This document shows positions 3,086 to 11,495 of a stretch of DNA of 20,352 nt, one piece after another. The position numbers and the translations under genes were made by a program. Position 1 is the first letter of the stretch, and every line of letters starts with the position of its first letter. Location of the stretch: IMG/VR virus record IMGVR_UViG_3300006100_000106, positions 1-20,352 of that record; one strand, given 5' to 3'. Source of the DNA: a virus. The notes under the pieces are model-generated. The model saw nothing but the letters and a program-made list of their open reading frames with translations. It had not been told where the DNA came from and ran no database searches.

Positions 3086-3093
3086 TATTTATT
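3086..3093 (-). promoter_or_regulatory. AATAAATA motif at a gene boundary
   Basis: AATAAATA overlaps the stop of the membrane-protein gene and precedes the non-coding stretch 2970-3088. Within that stretch a 7-bp inverted repeat (AAGTGGC 3033-3039, GCCACTT 3070-3076) is visible. A promoter or leader for the small genes downstream is possible but unproven. Confidence 0.22.
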
Positions 3094-3403: not shown

Positions 3404-3626
3404 GGCGTGCCTCCAATAGTTGTATTCTTACATGGAGTTGAGCCATGTCTCTTTCCATATGTTGTATCAAGGCCACAACATTTTGTTCATATTCAGCGAC
3501 CTGATGTATCAGTAGACTGTTGCGTCTAATCACCAAGGCCATTTGTTCTATTTGTTCAGCATGTTCACGGTCAGTAGCCAAAAGATCAGGCAAAACACTC
3601 ATGGGATCAAATTTATGAAATGTCAT
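3378..3626 (-). CDS. Small coiled-coil protein of unknown function
   Basis: An 82-aa protein. Residues about 19-75 form a heptad-rich amphipathic helix (DREHAEQIEQMALVIRRN, SLLIHQVAEYEQNVVALIQH, MAQLHVRIQLLEARLG). There is no membrane segment or cysteine. The ATG at 3626 lies inside the preceding gene (14-base overlap), with only a weak GAAAG before it. Its 3' end overlaps the next gene by 26 bases. Partnership with the downstream membrane protein, which also has a coiled coil, is plausible because the two genes overlap and both predict helical bundles. I do not recognise the family. Confidence 0.6.
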   Translation of the reverse strand: MTFHKFDPMSVLPDLLATDREHAEQIEQMALVIRRNSLLIHQVAEYEQNVVALIQHMERDMAQLHVRIQLLEARLGSSGLGQ

Positions 3627-3903
3627 ATTCTTTCATGTTCTTTTCAGCCAAATGTCCACTGCGTGTAACTATGATGGTATTGGCTAAACTCCATGGACCT
3701 GATGAATCCAAACGTGTCATACACACACTGTTGGGGCTACGTCCTCGTTGACTCCAAGTTTGGGGATCACGCCAAAGTTCAAACCAATCTTCAATGGTCA
3801 TCAACCATGGTTCTTGTCTATGATTGGCCTGTGCTCGTGCCTTGCTGAAGGCCTTGTGTCTCACATGGTCAAATTCATTTGAATATCTTTTAACTCCTGG
3901 CAT
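3613..3903 (-). CDS. Small HNH-related protein, paralogue of the gene at 251-628
   Basis: A 96-aa protein. ATG at 3903 is chosen because CAGGACAACAGT precedes it; an upstream ATG at 3948 would overlap the preceding gene by 59 bases, while this start overlaps by only 14. HKAFSKARAQANHRQEP, then TIEDWFELWRDPQTWSQRGR and VCMTRLDSSGPWSLANTIIV match, in order, the protein at 251-628 (HKSHSKSRGIDFQ, TFEEWWDIW, RGRGLGKYCMSRIGDLGPYA). These are short HNH-nuclease-like proteins spread among phages. The conserved Asn at the end of the core is present (SLANTI), but catalytic histidines are not. Function uncertain; probably a decayed mobile nuclease or DNA-binding protein. Confidence 0.6.
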   Translation of the reverse strand: MPGVKRYSNEFDHVRHKAFSKARAQANHRQEPWLMTIEDWFELWRDPQTWSQRGRSPNSVCMTRLDSSGPWSLANTIIVTRSGHLAEKNMKEYDIS

Positions 3904-4324
3904 ACTGTTGTCCTGTCTTTCTATTGGGTATATTGATGATCTCATCAAATGTCATACCTTGATTAAAATATCTATCTCTTATGGTCCAATAACTCATGCC
4001 CAAGATTTCACTCCATTCTTTTAGGCTGTGTGTTTCGCCTTGGTGTGTGACAAATTCACAATGTGGGCGATTGTTGCTGGCTTGTTTACTAGTGGCCCAT
4101 ATCAAATTGCCTGGAACCCAACCTTGATCTTGATCAATTCTATGTAGAATTTTGTAGCTGGCATCAGGTCGTGGTAAAGACTCCACATAGTCAGCAAACT
4201 CTAGAAAATTTCTAAAACCCAACTTGAGTTGATGACCATAATGATAATCTGGTGAATTGGGATTAAACTTGGCCTGTAGAATCCAACGCCAACGTGTGTA
4301 TAAGGGATGTTTGTTTGTGGTCAT
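3890..4324 (-). CDS. HNH-endonuclease-superfamily-like protein (degenerate)
   Basis: A 144-aa protein. N-terminal HPLYTRWRWILQAKF and GFRNFLEFADYVESLP (about 6-51) match the leader of phage HNH/AP2-type proteins. The core ILHRIDQDQGWVPGNLIWAT (about 59-78) followed by NNR corresponds to the common 'LDRIDNDGNYEPGNCRWAT...N.R' segment. The C-terminal part (SLKEWSEILGMSYWTIRDRY, GMTFDEII) is a helix-turn-helix-like DNA-binding module often attached to homing nucleases. The first catalytic His of HNH is not evident, so cleavage activity is doubtful. It starts eight bases after the previous stop with no clear SD. It may be a free-standing homing endonuclease remnant or a DNA-binding protein. Confidence 0.65.
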   Translation of the reverse strand: MTTNKHPLYTRWRWILQAKFNPNSPDYHYGHQLKLGFRNFLEFADYVESLPRPDASYKILHRIDQDQGWVPGNLIWATSKQASNNRPHCEFVTHQGETHSLKEWSEILGMSYWTIRDRYFNQGMTFDEIINIPNRKTGQQYARS

Positions 4325-4722: not shown

Positions 4723-5823
4723 TTATTCTCCTTTCAAAAGATGTATGACAATAGGGTAGTATACTGGTTGTGTTAATTTCATATAATCAAATTTTACATC
4801 AAACCCTGTTTGATTTCTCACATATTCACATAGCTCATTCCTATCTATTTCACTCTCACATGTCCACCCATCATGAATTAAAAAATATTTCACTTCTCTC
4901 TTATCTAAATAACGTCTAACTGATGTGATGATAACTCGCTCAAGTTCAAAATAAACATTCCACTTTTGTTGGCATGTGATTTTAATTAATCTATTTGTTT
5001 TGGCATTACGTCTGCGTGATAGTGTAGGCGTGATGTATTCCCAACAGGTCTTGATATCAGATATTAATTCATTTATGAATTTGTGTTGTTTTAGGAATTC
5101 AATACGAGCTAGATCTCCATTTAATATTTGATAGATATCACTATGGTCTTTGTTATTGGAAATAACAGCACCACAAAATAAAGCATTAATGATTTCTTTA
5201 ATGGCCGCGGGGTCAAGTTCAAGTTCATGAGCTAATTCATTTCTAATTTCAGTTCTATCAGTTAGGTATTTGTTTAGGGCAAATAGATATAGATCCATAC
5301 CTAGATGTTGTGCATATTGATGTATTAGTGTAGGTGCCGCACATTCAATGTCATAATCATGTAGGTATCCATGATCACTTAAGATTTGAGTTCTATGTTG
5401 TTTGCGATATCTCTGCAATGGATGCCAAAGGCGATTACTTAGATCTTTATATTCAAACTGACCAGATTCAAGTTCTTTATTATGATCTGTTTGGGCGACT
5501 TGTATGACAATAGGGTAGTAACTGGTTGTGTTAATTTTCAGTTGTCCCATCAAGGAATCTACTCCCTGTTTATTTAGGATATATTTTTTACATATACCCC
5601 TCTCACCAGGAACATTAAATTTGTAATAATCATCTGTGCAAATCAGTAAGGTATTCCTCAAATATTGACTTAATGGATTAGTAGCCATACCAAAATATTT
5701 GTCTATATATCTAGTAGACCATGGATGTGGTTTAGTCTCACTCATTACTGCACAGGCAAAGCCCATGGCTCTTTTCATACGGGCACGGGTTCGTGGATCA
5801 TTAAAGTTTGGTTCATAGGGCAT
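4723..5823 (-). CDS. Putative compact family-A-polymerase-like protein
   Basis: A 366-aa protein. ATG at 5823 has AAGGAGATAAGA before it, better than the upstream TTG at 5862. Three segments line up in order with single-subunit (family A DNA/T7-type RNA) polymerase motifs. D156-Y-D-I-E160, followed by CAAPTLI, resembles motif A (D-Y-S-x-I-E). K209-EIINALFC-G218 has the K-x8-G spacing of motif B (Pol I KAINFGLIYG). YFLIHDGWTCE with H317-D318 resembles motif C (VHDELVFE; T7 RNAP IHDSFG). FELERVIITSV (about 292-302) precedes motif C. The protein lacks exonuclease and most finger/thumb mass, so activity is uncertain. Alternatives: a replication initiator or primase-like enzyme. It contains an internal duplication (see repeats). 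Confidence 0.45.
   Translation of the reverse strand: MPYEPNFNDPRTRARMKRAMGFACAVMSETKPHPWSTRYIDKYFGMATNPLSQYLRNTLLICTDDYYKFNVPGERGICKKYILNKQGVDSLMGQLKINTTSYYPIVIQVAQTDHNKELESGQFEYKDLSNRLWHPLQRYRKQHRTQILSDHGYLHDYDIECAAPTLIHQYAQHLGMDLYLFALNKYLTDRTEIRNELAHELELDPAAIKEIINALFCGAVISNNKDHSDIYQILNGDLARIEFLKQHKFINELISDIKTCWEYITPTLSRRRNAKTNRLIKITCQQKWNVYFELERVIITSVRRYLDKREVKYFLIHDGWTCESEIDRNELCEYVRNQTGFDVKFDYMKLTQPVYYPIVIHLLKGE
4742..4780 (-). repeat. Direct repeat copy 2 inside the polymerase-like gene
   Basis: Second copy of the 39-base repeat at 5501-5539, offset by 759 bases (253 codons). It encodes KLTQPVYYPIVIH at the extreme C-terminus. The compensating indels change the frame only across the INTTS/LTQPV part. 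Confidence 0.85.
5501..5539 (-). repeat. Direct repeat copy 1 inside the polymerase-like gene
   Basis: Thirty-nine bases that recur at 4742-4780 with 38 aligned identical bases and two opposite one-base indels. This copy encodes KINTTSYYPIVIQ near residues 96-108 of the polymerase-like protein. Confidence 0.85.
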
Positions 5824-6016
5824 TCTTATCTCCTTGTAATAATCCCAATCTATCAGCCTCAATGGCTTGTAAACGAGTTAGCCAAGCAATGTGCTTAGAG
5901 CAATCTACGCAGTAATATCCAGCATAGTGCTGAGTGCTACTGGATCTAATTTCCACTTGACAGTTTTTGTGCCGTTCCAAAGGCGGTATTGGCATTTTTT
6001 TAATCTTGTGTGACAT
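5813..6016 (-). CDS. Small cysteine/histidine protein, probable zinc binder
   Basis: A 67-aa basic protein, first gene after the promoter at 6040-6075, with AAAAGGAGATTAA directly before the ATG. Possible metal ligands are C19 (RHKNCQVEI), H30 (TQHYAGYYC), C36 and C39 (YYCVDCSKHIAWLTRL) and H42. The 'YYC..C.KHI.WL' core resembles small phage proteins and finger modules linked to replication proteins, but I do not recognise a named family. Its stop lies inside the next gene (11-base overlap), indicating coupled translation with the polymerase-like protein. It may act as an accessory or nucleic-acid-binding partner; that is inference from adjacency. Confidence 0.6.
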   Translation of the reverse strand: MSHKIKKMPIPPLERHKNCQVEIRSSSTQHYAGYYCVDCSKHIAWLTRLQAIEADRLGLLQGDKNAL

Positions 6017-6039
6017 TTAATCTCCTTTTAATTACAATG

Positions 6040-6075
6040 TATTTATACTATACAGTAAAAATGTGATTAAATCAA
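6040..6075 (-). promoter_or_regulatory. Promoter of the accessory/replication operon
   Basis: On the minus strand TTGATT (6070-6075) and TATAGT (6047-6052) are separated by exactly 17 bases, matching four of six and five of six sigma-70 consensus bases. TATAAATA (6040-6047) overlaps the -10 by one base and is identical to the T4 late-promoter core. The promoter lies just after the terminator U-tract and about 20-30 bases before an AAGGAG RBS and ATG at 6016, so it is well placed to drive the downstream operon. Confidence 0.65.
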
Positions 6076-6084
6076 GGTATTTTG

Positions 6085-6117
6085 AACAAAAAAATACCCC
6101 CAATTGCTGGGGGTATT
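6085..6117 (-). terminator. Rho-independent terminator
   Basis: A perfect 9-bp stem, AATACCCCC paired with GGGGGTATT (6109-6117 with 6093-6101), with a seven-base loop. On the minus strand it is followed by a run of T (ATTTTTTTG, down to about 6087). It has a GC-rich stem and a U-tract on the minus strand only, so it ends transcription coming from the tail operon and/or the structured RNA. Confidence 0.88.
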
Positions 6118-6270
6118 GGAAAAGGTTAAAATGTCACAGAAAACCTTTTCGGTGATTTATAAAGTGTTCAGAGATTTACCTAGTTTGCCGCTATAGAAGA
6201 ATTGAACACTAGGGTGGATATAAATCACATGCGGTGGTTAAAAGTAATCTTAGGAGATGCCCACCGCACT
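6085..6270 (-). ncRNA. Candidate structured non-coding RNA of about 180 nt
   Basis: No protein gene fits here, but inverted repeats fill the segment. Reading along the minus strand, helix A pairs TGCGGTGG with CCACCGCA (8 bp; 6261-6268 with 6230-6237) around a 23-nt loop. Helix B pairs GTGATTTATA with TATAAATCAC (10 bp; 6219-6228 with 6152-6161) and continues, after an internal loop, into an 8-bp helix (6203-6210 with 6163-6170). Helix C pairs 9 bp (6142-6150 with 6119-6127). The terminator hairpin follows (6093-6117). Single nucleotides (6229, 6151, 6118) separate the helices. A TATAAT box sits immediately upstream. This organisation fits an independent transcript with stacked helices. Alternatives are a 3' UTR of the late operon or a replication origin. 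Family unrecognised. Confidence 0.5.
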
Positions 6271-6277
6271 AATATTT

Positions 6278-6306
6278 ATTATACACTGAAAAAATCACGA
6301 TTAAAA
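6278..6306 (-). promoter_or_regulatory. Candidate promoter for the structured RNA (TATAAT box)
   Basis: A perfect TATAAT lies at 6278-6283. Seventeen bases upstream is TTTTAA (6301-6306), a poor -35 with three of six consensus bases. Transcription would begin near 6269-6271, exactly at the foot of the first hairpin (6230-6268). The same bases also contain AATAAATA (6273-6280), so a T4-late-type promoter is an alternative reading. Seen directly: the box and its spacing. Inferred: activity. Confidence 0.4.
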
Positions 6307-6573: not shown

Positions 6574-6813
6574 TTATTTAAGATGGGTAATGATCACACC
6601 TATAGTGGTTATGATACTGACCACAACTGTGCCCGCTGTGCCAATCATTACTCGCCAGATATCAGCATGTAGGCTTTCAACTTTTTTGTGGACTTCATCT
6701 ACTTTATTTTCCACACTGGATAATCTGTCTTCTAAGGCCTTGTATCGTTGAGCACAAAGATCCACGTGTGTTTCTAGGTCATGTGTTTCGGCTGGAATAG
6801 TGTTTATGGTCAT
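6574..6813 (-). CDS. Small coiled-coil membrane protein, XhlA/holin-like
   Basis: A 79-aa protein. The ATG at 6813 forms an ATGA overlap with the preceding stop, which decides the start over a TTG at 6831. Residues about 14-50 (ETHVDLCAQRYKALEDRLSS, then VENKVDEVHKKVESLHADI) form a charged amphipathic coiled coil. Residues about 54-77 (VMIGTAGTVVVSIITTIGVI) are one transmembrane helix. The layout of N-terminal coiled coil plus C-terminal membrane anchor matches XhlA-type proteins, which help holins in host lysis. It lies at the end of the late operon, a usual place for lysis genes, but no endolysin is recognisable nearby. An alternative is a structural membrane-associated protein. Confidence 0.6.
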   Translation of the reverse strand: MTINTIPAETHDLETHVDLCAQRYKALEDRLSSVENKVDEVHKKVESLHADIWRVMIGTAGTVVVSIITTIGVIITHLK

Positions 6814-7169
6814 AATGGTATTTGATCCCAAGTTTGTTCTGTTTCATTCCATGACCAAGCTATACCTTCTTGAGGTTCTGGTTTGGCCACAGGTGGCTGC
6901 CATAGCCAATTGGTTTCAGGACCTATTGTCCAACTGGGATATGGTTGTGGTGGATAAAAAACATCATGTTCTTCATCATAAAAATATCCTAGACCGGCAA
7001 AGTTGCCTCTTAAAGGTGTGCCACCTAATAGATGCTGATTGCCACGTGTGTTATAGCTGGTCTGTATCCAGCGTCCTGGACTAGTATCTACAAATGTATC
7101 AAAAAATTCTGGTTCAGCTCTGATTACATTTATAACTCGTCCATAATCGACTTTTGCGTAATGACTCAT
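6810..7169 (-). CDS. Conserved phage protein of unknown function following tail fibres
   Basis: A 119-aa protein. The ATG at 7169 has AAGGAGAACACT before it, which is better than the upstream ATG at 7190. It begins MSHYAKVDYGRVINVIRAEP and contains EFFDTFVDTSPGRWIQTSYN, then LRGNFAGLGYFYDEEHDVF and PPQPYPSW, and ends with a Trp-rich segment. I recognise this as a small protein family common in marine and cyanobacterial phages near tail-fibre genes; its biochemical role is not established to my knowledge. Position suggests a fibre-associated or assembly function. Its TGA overlaps the next ATG (ATGA), so the downstream membrane protein is translationally coupled to it. Confidence 0.72.
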   Translation of the reverse strand: MSHYAKVDYGRVINVIRAEPEFFDTFVDTSPGRWIQTSYNTRGNQHLLGGTPLRGNFAGLGYFYDEEHDVFYPPQPYPSWTIGPETNWLWQPPVAKPEPQEGIAWSWNETEQTWDQIPL

Positions 7170-7179
7170 AGTGTTCTCC

Positions 7180-8922
7180 TTAAGCAACATATTGTCCAGA
7201 TGAGGTAAATTTGTGAATATACCATGTGGCAGAATTAATTGTGGCAGTGGAAACTGCGCCTCCAGTGCCTAATTGAGTGGGACTTTGATAAGTTACAAAT
7301 ACCACACCACTTCCGCCATTACCTCCGTGTCCACTACAATAAGCGCCACCTCCGCCACCACCTCCTAAAAATGCTGTGCCTGCACTGCCATAATAACCTG
7401 CCACTGAGCCCGCACCACTGCCGCCTCCACCAGTTGATGGTGTTCCTGGACCATAGAATCCGCCACCCCCAGCTCCGCCGCCTCCAGCAAAATAAGTATT
7501 GGTGCCTGTGATTGCGGTTTGAAGTCCAGCTCCGCCATTACCACCAGCATGGCTTATGCCCTGACTGCCCGCATAACCAGCACCACCGCCACCTCCGCCA
7601 TTACTACCACTGGCATTGGCTGTGCCTCCGCCATTATTGCCTTGACCTGCTGTGCCAGATCCGCCTGTGCCTGATGCTGAACTTCCGCCACCAGATCCAC
7701 TGCCAGATCCACCACTCCAACCCTGCTGTGCTGTGGCTATACCACCACCGCCTCCTCCAATACTGGTCACACTACCAAACACGCTGTTTAGACCAAATGT
7801 GCCAGTGCTGGTGCCATTGCCGCCAGCTCCACCCGCACCCACTGTGACAGTGTAACTATTACCACTGACCACAGCAGTTGTGCCAGTTTGGAATCCACCA
7901 GCTCCGCCACCTCCGCCCCAATTGCTACCGCCACCACCGCCACCAGCAACCACAATATAGGTTGCGGTATATACACCAAGTCCAGCAGATCCAGTATAAC
8001 CAATAGAACCTTGGCTACCAGTATAGCCCACTGATCCATTATAGCCAGCAGGTCCTTGTGGTCCTTGTGGTCCAGTGGGTCCTTGAACGCCCTGACTACC
8101 AGTATAACCAGTAGATCCCAAATAGCCACCTGGGCCTTGAACGCCCTGACTGCCAGTATAACCAGTAGATCCTAAATAACCACCAGGTCCTTGTGGTCCT
8201 GTAGGCCCTTGAACGCCCTGACTGCCTGTATAGCCCACTGATCCATTATAGCCAGCTGGTCCTTGAACGCCTTGACTGCCGGTGAACCCTATTGATCCAT
8301 TATAGCCAGCCGTGCCCTGACTACCCTGACTGCCTGTATAGCCCACTGATCCATTATAACCAGCCGTGCCCTGACTACCCTGTGATCCATTATAACCATT
8401 ATTGCCTGCTAGGCTAATGTTCCAATAGGTGTATGTTCCGCTGCCTGAACTAACATCAGACCAAATATTAATAAGTTTGTTAGTGGCATCAATTGAGCCA
8501 ATATAACCTTGAAAGTAATTTGTGGTCGATGAAGTAGCTATAACTCTTACATAATCACCTGGTTGATATGCTCCAGATGTTCCACCCACGTTGTTAGATC
8601 CAGTATATCCATAGTATTCAAAAGTGGTCCAATTATTTGTTCTTGGAAAAGTTATATTCTGTTGAATATATTGAACATTGGGTAATAGATATCCAAGACC
8701 TTGACTGCCTGAATAGCCCTGTGGTCCTTGAACGCCTTGACTGCCAGTGTAACCCACTGATCCAGTGAATCCACCACTACCATTTAAACCAGCAGAACCT
8801 TGATAGCCTGCCGCGCCTTGACTGCCAGTGTAACCTACCAAGCCATTGGCCGTGGTCACAGTGGTATTATCGTTGAATTGAATTCCTGTTGGAACTCTAA
8901 AGTATTTGTTTGTTGTTGTCAT
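7180..8922 (-). CDS. Collagen-like plus glycine-rich tail adhesin
   Basis: A 580-aa protein. ATG at 8922 is chosen over an upstream GTG at 8940 because the resulting MTTTNKYFRVPTGIQF opening parallels the neighbouring fibre's, with AGGGA about eight bases before it. Collagen repeats (about 20-75) are followed by a beta insert (about 76-176) ending GSGTYTYWNISLAG, then a longer collagen stretch (about 177-325). The C-terminal domain (about 326-580) is extremely glycine-rich: YIVVAGGGGGGSNWGGGG, VTVGAGGAGG, and GGNGGSGVVFVTY near the end. Such domains in phage adhesins form sandwiches of polyglycine-II helices that bind receptors. Last of the four fibre genes, so probably the receptor-contacting tip. 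Confidence 0.8.
   Translation of the reverse strand: MTTTNKYFRVPTGIQFNDNTTVTTANGLVGYTGSQGAAGYQGSAGLNGSGGFTGSVGYTGSQGVQGPQGYSGSQGLGYLLPNVQYIQQNITFPRTNNWTTFEYYGYTGSNNVGGTSGAYQPGDYVRVIATSSTTNYFQGYIGSIDATNKLINIWSDVSSGSGTYTYWNISLAGNNGYNGSQGSQGTAGYNGSVGYTGSQGSQGTAGYNGSIGFTGSQGVQGPAGYNGSVGYTGSQGVQGPTGPQGPGGYLGSTGYTGSQGVQGPGGYLGSTGYTGSQGVQGPTGPQGPQGPAGYNGSVGYTGSQGSIGYTGSAGLGVYTATYIVVAGGGGGGSNWGGGGGAGGFQTGTTAVVSGNSYTVTVGAGGAGGNGTSTGTFGLNSVFGSVTSIGGGGGGIATAQQGWSGGSGSGSGGGSSASGTGGSGTAGQGNNGGGTANASGSNGGGGGGAGYAGSQGISHAGGNGGAGLQTAITGTNTYFAGGGGAGGGGFYGPGTPSTGGGGSGAGSVAGYYGSAGTAFLGGGGGGGAYCSGHGGNGGSGVVFVTYQSPTQLGTGGAVSTATINSATWYIHKFTSSGQYVA
8081..8188 (-). repeat. Two tandem 54-bp collagen-coding units
   Basis: 8081-8134 and 8135-8188 are near-identical 54-base units differing at about five positions. 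Each encodes the 18-residue block GGYLGSTGYTGSQGVQGP. The unit is a multiple of three Gly-X-Y triplets, so gain or loss by slippage or recombination keeps both frame and collagen register. Confidence 0.85.
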
Positions 8923-8945
8923 TTTGGTTTCCCTATCCACCTAAT

Positions 8946-8965
8946 TGGGGGTCCTAAGACCCCCA
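8946..8965 (-). other. Perfect hairpin between two fibre genes
   Basis: An 8-bp stem (TGGGGGTC with GACCCCCA) closed by a four-base loop lies in the 59-base gap between the fibre genes at 8982 and 8922. On the minus strand no T-run follows, so it is not a standard terminator. It may be an RNA-processing or stability element, or a weak attenuator lowering expression of the last adhesin. Confidence 0.55.
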
Positions 8966-8970
8966 TACCA

Positions 8971-8978
8971 TATTTATT
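8971..8978 (-). promoter_or_regulatory. AATAAATA motif in the fibre intergenic gap
   Basis: AATAAATATGG lies just after the stop of the fibre gene and before the hairpin at 8946-8965. The 14-base stretch TAAACCAATAAATA here is identical to the one at 4329-4342. It could be a late-type promoter for the glycine-rich adhesin; evidence is motif and position only. Confidence 0.25.
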
Positions 8979-8981
8979 GGT

Positions 8982-10337
8982 TTACAACGCAAACAATATT
9001 TTTGCCACACGAATTGTCATATTACTTGCTCCTGTTGGAGTAAATTGTAATACGCAATTACCGCTGTTCAATATTGCTTGGAATGTGCCCAATGGTCCAT
9101 TGTTACTTAACTGACCATATTCAGTTTCATAAACATTGGTGCCGTTTTGTGTTACCAGTAATTCTGTGAAGTAGATATTGCCACTGTCCACAACTTGAAT
9201 GTAGTATTTGGCACTGACATAGGTTGTAGAATTAAATGTATCTAAATTCACTGTGCTTGTGCCACTGATACCACTCAAGTAATAACTTGTGTATGTGATA
9301 CCATCACCAGTAATCAATGGATATACTGTGTTGCTGGAACTGCCACCTAAAGTAACTTCAACGAATGTTGGGCTGTCTGTGGTGTTTAGACTTTGGTTAT
9401 AACTACCTGCTGAACCAGTATAACCAGTTGGACCAGCAACAGTAGATGCTGAACCAGTATAACCAGTGTTACCAGCATTACCCTGTGTTCCTTGGCTACC
9501 AGTGTATCCTAGATCGCCCTTGCTGCCAGTGTAACCATTTGTTCCGTTTGAACCAGTATAACCAGTTGTTCCTTGTGTGCCTTGGCTACCTGTATAACCC
9601 AATACGCCCACAGCACCATCCAAGTTCACAGTCCATGTGCTATAACTACCACTACCAATTGTGCGGTTTACATTAAAGCTGAATGCTCCATTGCTAGAAT
9701 TATAAGAAGTAACAGTTACATAAGCAAGATTGCTAACATCATAAGCCACAACTGCTGTTTGTCCCACAGTCCAACTTAAACCGGTATCAATATCAATTGT
9801 GCCACTTGAACTACCTAATGTAAAACTTCCACTACCTTCGCTGGCATACTTGTCACTGTTACCAGGAGTTCCTTGATCACCCTTAGATCCAGTATAACCA
9901 ATATTGCCTTGGCTACCAGTGTATCCCATGTCACCATGGCTACCAGTATAACCCTGTGTGCCTTGTGTGCCTTGGCTACCAGTATAGCCTGTATCACCAT
10001 GTGTGCCTTGGCTACCAGTATATCCAAAAGATCCAGTGTAACCAGCATTTCCTTGATCGCCTTTGGAACCAGTATAACCCTGTAGACCCATTGTGCCTTG
10101 GCTACCTTGGCTACCAGTATAACCCTGTGTTCCTTGGCTACCAGTATAACCAGTTACATCAGGAGCACCAGTAATTTGACTCCAATAAACACTGGCACTG
10201 CTATTCCACGCTGTGCTTTGTAATGTGCTATTGCTAAAGTGTATATTGCCACCCAATACCAAATCGTTGCCTACCGTGGCTGTGGTGGCAACATCTAGAC
10301 CTTTCTTAACCTTAAAGTTATTGTCATAAGTTGTCAT
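8982..10337 (-). CDS. Collagen-like tail fibre protein (paralogue of the preceding fibre)
   Basis: A 451-aa protein with AAGGA eight bases before its ATG. After MTTYDNNFKVKKGLDVATTA (residues 1-20), a fibre N-terminus seen in many phages, it has collagen-like repeats (about 58-165, GYTGSQGTQGYTGSQGSQG). A beta insert with VGQTAVVAYDVSNLAYVTVT closes in GSGSYSTWTVNLDG. A second collagen stretch and NQSLNTTDSPTFVEVTLGG follow. The C-terminal domain (about 340-451) contains AKYYIQVVDSG, GTNVYETEYG and LQFTPTGASNMTIRVAK, and matches the end of the upstream fibre (AKYFIQLVDSG, GTNVYKTEYG, LQFTPFGATNLSVRIAK). The two genes therefore arose by duplication or module exchange. Confidence 0.8.
   Translation of the reverse strand: MTTYDNNFKVKKGLDVATTATVGNDLVLGGNIHFSNSTLQSTAWNSSASVYWSQITGAPDVTGYTGSQGTQGYTGSQGSQGTMGLQGYTGSKGDQGNAGYTGSFGYTGSQGTHGDTGYTGSQGTQGTQGYTGSHGDMGYTGSQGNIGYTGSKGDQGTPGNSDKYASEGSGSFTLGSSSGTIDIDTGLSWTVGQTAVVAYDVSNLAYVTVTSYNSSNGAFSFNVNRTIGSGSYSTWTVNLDGAVGVLGYTGSQGTQGTTGYTGSNGTNGYTGSKGDLGYTGSQGTQGNAGNTGYTGSASTVAGPTGYTGSAGSYNQSLNTTDSPTFVEVTLGGSSSNTVYPLITGDGITYTSYYLSGISGTSTVNLDTFNSTTYVSAKYYIQVVDSGNIYFTELLVTQNGTNVYETEYGQLSNNGPLGTFQAILNSGNCVLQFTPTGASNMTIRVAKILFAL
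9411..10156 (-). repeat. Degenerate collagen-coding repeat array
   Basis: Two blocks (about 9411-9600 and 9860-10156) of 18- to 27-base degenerate repeats, recognisable on the plus strand as recurring 'ttggctaccagtataacc'. They encode GYTGSQG-type triplets, interrupted by the beta insert of the fibre protein. Similar but shorter arrays lie at about 7981-8400, 11228-11340 and 12290-12550. Confidence 0.7.
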
Positions 10338-10349
10338 TTGCTTTTCCTT

Positions 10350-11495
10350 TTATAAGACAGCCAGTTTTGTTTTGGCAATACGAACTGATAAGTTTGTAGC
10401 CCCGAAAGGAGTAAATTGTAACTGGACCCAATTTCCTCCCATTGTGTTTATTGTTGCGCCAAAGGTGCCCAATAAACCGTTATTGTAATTCATACCATAT
10501 TCTGTTTTGTAGACATTGGTGCCATCTTGAACCAAGCTAATTTCAGTGACTTGATAGCTGCCACTGTCCACTAGTTGTATAAAATATTTGGCACTGGTAT
10601 AGGCTGTGGCATCAAAGGTATCTAAGGTAAATGTGCCTGATCCATTAAGACCAGTTTGATAATAACTGCTGGATACCACACCATTATTGGCAAGATAATC
10701 ATAACTGGTATTGGCAGTATTACCACTGACCACCAAACTGGTTGATGTTATGGTATTGGTTGATAAAATTTGACCTGAAACATTAATAGTGGCTGTGCTA
10801 CTAAAATTTAAAGAATTGGTCAAGGTCACACCTGCGAATGTGACATTGTCTGTGGTATTCAAACTTTGATTATAGGTGCTACCAGCACTACCACTATATC
10901 CTCTTGGCCCTCTACTGCCAGTGTAACCAGTTATGGCAAAACCACTTAATACCAGACTCCATTCAGTAAATGATCCACTACCACCCACACTGTAAACACC
11001 AATATTAATAATCTGACCTGATACTGTAGTAATAAAACCTGAAATATAATTGGTAGGATCTGGATTACCATTAGGACTACTGATTAACAATACTGATTGG
11101 TTTGGCACATAACCAGTGCCACTAACTTGGATATTGATAGATGTTACATTAATAACCGTATTATATAAACTAGGATCAATGGTTATTGAATTACTGGATA
11201 CCAAGAAGGCAGGAAAACCCAAGGCGGCTGAACCAGTATAACCTTTTGATCCCATAAAACCTGCGGATCCAGTGTATCCTGTGCCTTGACTGCCAGTATA
11301 ACCAATAGCGCCTTGGCTACCAGTATAACCCATGGATCCCACATATCCTGAACCAGATCCCACAGCAATACCACCCTGGGTAACGCCATCACCCACATAT
11401 AGTTGTTTGTTGTCAGTGGTCCAAATAGGTTCACCACTCAATGGAGTGATTGTTTGTAGTTGTGTATAGGTTCCTTTTCTAAACTGTAATGCCAT
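10350..11495 (-). CDS. Collagen-like tail fibre with Mtd-type N-terminal domain
   Basis: A 381-aa fibre protein with AGGAGG seven bases before its ATG; only two bases separate it from the previous stop. It begins MALQFRKGTYTQLQTITPLS and continues GEPIWTTDNKQLYVGDGVT, the 'R.GT......P..GE..W.TD...LYVGDG' module known from the N-terminus of major tropism determinant-like fibres. It then has short Gly-Tyr-Thr-Gly-Ser repeats, an inserted beta module (about 96-187) closing with GSGSFTEWSLVLSG, NQSLNTTDNVTFAGVTLTN, and a C-terminal domain (about 270-381) with AKYFIQLVDSG and TEYGM. The insert and C-terminal domains are shared with the next gene. No variable-repeat/reverse-transcriptase system is visible in the window. 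Confidence 0.8.
   Translation of the reverse strand: MALQFRKGTYTQLQTITPLSGEPIWTTDNKQLYVGDGVTQGGIAVGSGSGYVGSMGYTGSQGAIGYTGSQGTGYTGSAGFMGSKGYTGSAALGFPAFLVSSNSITIDPSLYNTVINVTSINIQVSGTGYVPNQSVLLISSPNGNPDPTNYISGFITTVSGQIINIGVYSVGGSGSFTEWSLVLSGFAITGYTGSRGPRGYSGSAGSTYNQSLNTTDNVTFAGVTLTNSLNFSSTATINVSGQILSTNTITSTSLVVSGNTANTSYDYLANNGVVSSSYYQTGLNGSGTFTLDTFDATAYTSAKYFIQLVDSGSYQVTEISLVQDGTNVYKTEYGMNYNNGLLGTFGATINTMGGNWVQLQFTPFGATNLSVRIAKTKLAVL

Follow-up and report, generated by a model that had tools for sequence, protein, structure and literature searches.

Only a few phage-encoded antisense RNAs acting in trans are known, and most of them come from a handful of temperate model phages. The c4 RNA of phages P1 and P7 precedes its target, with both encoded on one strand, sar of P22 and OOP of lambda overlap their targets, being read from the other DNA strand, and the plasmid copy-number RNAs of the CopA/RNAI type are fully complementary counter-transcripts that limit an adjacent replication gene. 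In c4, the loops a' and b' pair upstream of and on the ribosome-binding site (RBS) of the target mRNA, and the loop sequences carry the target specificity (PMC5320573, PMC12197685). Both sar and OOP are short phage antisense RNAs, each controlling how a single mRNA is translated or degraded (PMC12197685).

The locus studied here lies in a virus record of 20,352 bases (the window, meaning the whole stretch of DNA analysed), in which nearly all genes are on the minus strand. Judged by its sequence, a stretch of about 180 bases is a small-RNA gene, belonging to a family from environmental bacteriophages that had not been catalogued before. We consider it probable that this gene specifies a small antisense RNA in its own right, some 175 nt long in the window, which brakes the adjacent replication-side operon. 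Like c4, the RNA is phage-encoded, and two of its loops are complementary to the RBS and upstream sequence of a gene that follows on that strand. However, c4 measures about 77 nt and is released by RNase P from a longer precursor, whereas each of the units described here (about 75-215 nt across the relatives) has its own promoter, placed at the foot of hairpin 1, and its own terminator, which makes such processing unlikely. The target of c4 is an antirepressor operon, here it is replication-side genes. The C4 covariance model (RF01695) gave 0 matches in 21 contigs at E <= 1, in a search whose controls included no true-positive genome, and C4 was also missing from whole-library Rfam scans. Membership in C4 thus fails because of the lack of a model match, the dedicated promoter and terminator and the different targets; by analogy, the RNA would act like P1 c4 but is outside the Rfam C4 family. 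As with sar and OOP, a short phage antisense RNA would be directed against one mRNA, but instead of overlapping on opposite strands the RNA and its target share the minus strand, with ~70 nt between them in the window. The CopA/RNAI type also consists of structured antisense RNAs beside a replication gene, yet the matches seen here are only of loop length.

Fold and surroundings of the RNA in the window

No open reading frame of at least 50 aa was found between an 89-aa gene ending at 6301 and a 67-aa gene starting at 6016. Folding of positions 6271-6085 on the minus strand gave -55.3 kcal/mol (z -5.5 against shuffles), and for 6271-6093 the minimum free energy was -55.0 compared to -34.0 kcal/mol in dinucleotide shuffles (z -5.84), none of 200 being as stable. 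In this fold, hairpin 1 (6229-6269, minus) has 9 bp and a 23-nt loop, hairpin 2 (6152-6228, minus) has 10 bp continued by an inner helix of 8 bp, and hairpin 3 (6119-6150, minus) has 9 bp and a 14-nt loop. They are followed by an intrinsic terminator hairpin (6093-6117, minus) with a U-run at 6088-6094 and a GCAAU pentaloop at 6103-6107. Gaps of 0-1 nucleotide separate the neighbouring helices, including that of the terminator. A second large hairpin is present also in the relatives L008, L097, L103 and L104. No tRNA was found in the region 6085-6283, and Rfam returned 0 matches at the gathering score in the window and eight related loci, the best sub-threshold hits being far below the cut-off. 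Readings as a 6S-like RNA, a tRNA-like RNA or a riboswitch were dropped, as there was no match to any of them. The preliminary description of this DNA had claimed a stretch without protein genes, with three hairpins and a terminator resembling no known RNA family, and had proposed folding as a check; all of this agrees with the open reading frames, the fold and the family searches above, and the helices fall where it had placed them.

The 67-aa gene (5813-6016, minus), the predicted target, encodes a small Cys-containing protein, and its 3' end overlaps the start of a gene for a polymerase-like protein of 366 aa (4723-5823, minus), which is the conserved downstream neighbour of the RNA. In L008, the ortholog of the 67-aa protein is located downstream of the polymerase-like gene. 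The 366-aa protein had no sequence match in Pfam, PHROG or PDB. Its AlphaFold model (pLDDT 85.9) had T7 DNA polymerase as the best fold match, a weak one (E 2.6e-3). Conserved motifs of the protein, YDIxxxAPTLI, KxxxNALFxG and HDGW, appear to resemble polymerase motifs A, B and C, and the protein is possibly a minimal family-A-like polymerase.

Elsewhere on the minus strand of the window, a polyphosphate kinase 2 (PPK2) gene is located at 636-1412 (Pfam E 1.7e-78), a possible auxiliary metabolic gene of the phage. Small open reading frames resembling those of homing endonucleases (251-628, with NUMOD3; 3613-3948; 3890-4324) are scattered through the operon, and tail-fibre-like proteins with long collagen-like GYTGSQG/GPQG repeats are encoded at 7180-11495.

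Promoter, relatives and covariation of the unit

An equivalent unit was found at the same locus in ~26 related phage contigs, in the DNA between a small Zn-ribbon gene and the next operon. Units were read in L008, L091, L094, L097, L098, L103, L104, L113, L116, L117, L121, L123, L126, L127, L131, L133, L141, L142, L143, L168, L220 and others, and they close with a terminator. The related contigs are fragments. The polymerase-like protein occurred in 38 loci in the IMG/VR scans with neighbouring proteins. A further contig with both this gene and the RNA, L220 (CAISKC010000012.1), was assigned to the MAG of an uncultured Legionella; it could be a prophage, or a phage that was binned wrongly. With the strict descriptor, no unit was found in the searched stretch of 21 of 23 further loci having the polymerase-like or a holin-like gene, so that either the RNA is not universal or some units were missed by the descriptor. 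The promoter descriptor gave 26 hits compared to 5.7 on shuffled sequence, and single hits are therefore not proof. A motif scan of 80 loci fetched with the tail-side protein at 6810-7190 returned no homologous RNA, and the terminator-rich stretches inspected among them were mostly ends of coding genes. Comparison of the region with isolate phages by blastn produced chance hits only and no similar DNA; with the isolate phage P19250A, a tail tip protein is the sole shared feature.

Late promoters of T4-like phages have the consensus TATAAATA at -13 to -6, and phage Aeh1 has CTAAATA (PMC1524935). When 23 loci were aligned on the motif, TAAATA was present in all of them, preceded by A or C, and in 21 of the 23 a G follows six bases after it, which is the expected +1 given the positions occupied by the T4-like late promoter. 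The core common to the units is thus [A/C]TAAATA-N5-G, and the 23 loci share no conserved -35 element. In the window the core is ATAAATA at 6273-6279 (minus), and the predicted +1 is G6267 at the foot of the first helix, which is where the preliminary description had placed the start of transcription. The TATAAT box which it took as the promoter is indeed present at 6286-6281 (minus) as a sigma-70 -10-like sequence; it is, however, not conserved in most relatives, and the conserved element is the overlapping ATAAATA, of T4-late type rather than plain sigma-70. T4-type late promoters (TATAAATA, gp55) likewise have an ATAAATA or CTAAATA core, no conserved -35 and a +1 six bases past the core, and the units combine a TATAAATA-like -10 core without -35 with a fixed distance to a +1 that is itself predicted. 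T4 has the sigma factor gp55, whereas PHROGs recognised no gp55-like sigma, gp33 or clamp among the proteins of two fragmentary relatives. In L095, L139 and L140, a TATAAT-like box overlaps TAAATA and has a TTGACA 17 bases ahead of it. In ten related contigs, 71 of the 119 TAAATA sites on the coding strand were in non-coding DNA, compared to 0 of 19 on the other strand, and non-coding DNA makes up only 7.2% of these contigs. Because the motif is strand-specific and concentrated in non-coding DNA, it is most likely a phage promoter class. In the window, sites of the motif are found at 3086, 4329, 6040, 6273 and 8971.

As the MAFFT alignment of the distant members was structurally unusable, covariation was counted on promoter-anchored arms of hairpin 1, with the 5' arm taken at a set spacing from the promoter while the 3' arm was left free (n=18 sequences). 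Of the hairpin-1 cells, 92.2% were paired, compared to 62.8% in shuffles and 30-51% in slid controls; double changes numbered 60 compared to 17.9 in shuffles, and the covariation score was 0.90 against 0.28 shuffled and at most 0.28 slid. Since the 3' arm had been picked for pairing, a second null was run on other TAAATA sites: a stem score of at least 20 was reached by 78% of the ncRNA promoters but by 2% of 108 other sites (p 4e-13). L126 and L127 have near-identical flanks and first stems which differ in sequence yet both pair, and the anti-start loop core GUCAUU is kept in both. The compensatory changes which the preliminary description had expected in homologues are thus abundant in hairpin 1, with the promoter core and terminator kept as well, and its view that the locus contains a separate, structured phage RNA of ~180 nt, equipped with a promoter and a terminator, gains support from the ~26 contigs that keep units at the same locus.

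A hairpin of at least 4 bp with a GCAAY pentaloop was found in 13 of 23 units (0.18 expected), either as a hairpin of its own ahead of the terminator or in the loop of the terminator, which is the case in the window. In the relatives, such hairpins are located at 3905 in L094, 5002 in L095, 5179 in L097, 5194 in L103, 5224 in L104, 1521 in L121, 2255 in L123, 2163 in L130, 2269 in L132, 1633 in L133 and 2806 in L138. The word UCCUUUA occurs in 9 of 22 units (0.44 expected), GCCAU, UGUCAU and UUGCCAA are also enriched, and UCCU is mostly unpaired in the units.

Complementarity to the downstream translation start

The preliminary description had given no function to the RNA, and the antisense match of its loops to the adjacent translation start is our addition. 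In the window, the predicted target is the Shine-Dalgarno (SD) and start region AAAAGGAGAUUAAAUGUCACA (6009-6029, minus). The segment AUCUCCU in the loop of hairpin 1 (6252-6258, minus) is complementary to AGGAGAU at 6020-6026, and the segment UGUGACAUUU in the loop of hairpin 3 (6129-6138, minus) forms a perfect 10-bp match with AAAUGUCACA at 6009-6018, which includes the start codon. After UGUGACAUUU, CCUUUU of hairpin 3 (6120-6125, minus) is complementary to AAAAGG at 6024-6029. In the relatives the target genes differ; the polymerase-like gene itself is the first downstream gene in many of them and another gene comes first in some. In L142, GGCCAUUG matches the start and UCUCCGUU the SD, and target-pairing segments are ACGCCAU and UUCCUUUA in L121, UUUCAUGUUUA and GUUGCCAAAC in L113, UCUUGUUGCCA in L168 and GUUGUUUCGCACA in L091. 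L138 has a 15-base match to its target. The match in L092 is partly its own terminator and was discounted, and the trimmed shuffled-target test leaves the terminator out.

In a first broad test of the loops against all translation starts only a weak preference was seen (p 0.02), and pairing by simple complementarity to the starts was inconsistent. The top hits were, though, often the gene immediately downstream, and therefore swapped, shuffled and positional controls were run. First downstream genes were assigned by position, and the start codons of distant members by position and SD, of which a few may be wrong. Duplexes of each RNA with its own target had a mean energy of -21.9 compared to -16.7 for swapped pairs (0 of 100,000 permutations). 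When the intramolecular structure was included, own pairs reached -8.4 and swapped pairs -5.2, again with 0 of 100,000; in this structure-aware test the own target ranked 1-2 in five of ten contigs, came fifth in another, and had a middle or low rank in the remaining four. Against dinucleotide-shuffled targets, as a control for composition, Fisher p was 1e-13, although only 12 of the 26 members were significant individually: L008, L095 and L140 had no signal, and in L103, L104 and L220 it was weak. The signal is confined to about -30 to +11 of the start codon (mean z -2.5) and drops to approximately zero inside the gene; in the shuffled-target test, an internal control on the same genes had a mean z of +0.19. 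The target-pairing segments are also more often unpaired than the whole RNA (0.57 vs 0.41). In L140, another downstream start (819) has UUAGGAGA, complementary to the L140 loop UCUCCUAA; this was noticed post hoc and not counted.

Mode of action and rival explanations

From these sequences, the RNA most likely represses the replication operon in trans by an antisense mechanism. It would be transcribed from the TAAATA promoter (6279-6273) with +1 near 6267, end at the intrinsic terminator (6117-6093), and display on its hairpins single-stranded loops complementary to the SD and start codon of the gene that opens the next operon. That operon would be transcribed from its own promoter, TATAAATA at 6040-6047 (minus), which belongs to the motif class found to be non-coding and strand-specific in the ten related contigs. 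Pairing of the loops would then block ribosome binding on the first gene and, via the overlapping genes, may lead to less of the polymerase-like protein. Because the polymerase-like gene is in the target operon, or is its first gene in many relatives, lower replication-gene expression is the likely effect, and the RNA would serve to limit or time it.

The UCCU and UCCUUUA loops, together with the weak overall preference for translation starts, might also suggest a general anti-SD RNA acting on many phage or host mRNAs, with the neighbour as one target of many. This we regard as unlikely, as the complementarity also covers start codons and upstream sequence particular to each gene, and the RNAs score better with their own targets than with swapped ones. 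The position of the RNA on the strand of its target, roughly 20-650 nt upstream with the terminator between, would also suit a cis-acting leader, that is, the 5' part of a read-through transcript in which the loops sequester the downstream start of the same molecule, or an attenuator at the terminator. A strong terminator, however, parts the RNA from the target, a second TAAATA promoter lies between the terminator and the target gene in the window and in L008, and the two loop segments of the window belong to different hairpins, an arrangement shared with c4, which acts in trans; a leader of this kind is thus quite unlikely.

It seems slightly less probable still that the RNA has no promoter of its own and is a 3' UTR-derived sRNA, processed from the mRNA of the tail/lysis operon and acting on the same targets. 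As the sequence between the end of the upstream gene at 6301 and the RNA has no evident terminator, late transcripts probably run through it, but TAAATA and its fixed spacing to the G at the foot of hairpin 1 are conserved over 23 loci. Finally, the polymerase-like gene adjoins in most relatives, which could point to an element acting at the DNA level, such as a replication origin or packaging site with hairpins on single-stranded DNA. We regard this as very improbable, since the unit has a polarity with the promoter first and the terminator last, the complementarity is limited to the surroundings of the translation start of the gene that follows, and the downstream target is another gene in some relatives.

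The family can be recognised by a grammar of TAAATA, a stem at +1, antisense loops, a GCAAY hairpin and a terminator, and with the predicted target next door the pairing rules can be read from the sequence. A more far-reaching and tentative idea, to which we give only a limited chance, is a new antisense class whose loop code evolves fast, and in which a T4-late-type promoter is combined with a conserved GCAAY pentaloop that would bind some partner, forming a gene-dosage feedback loop on the replication operon, in which the immunity or incompatibility of related phages follows the loop sequence. In that case the RNA would accumulate as the genomes multiply, and the replication operon would be turned off. 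The repressor would provide a handle on replication control in phages with a minimal polymerase-like gene, and the analogy to the c4 system of P1 and P7 suggests that the loop sequence could set the compatibility among related phages.
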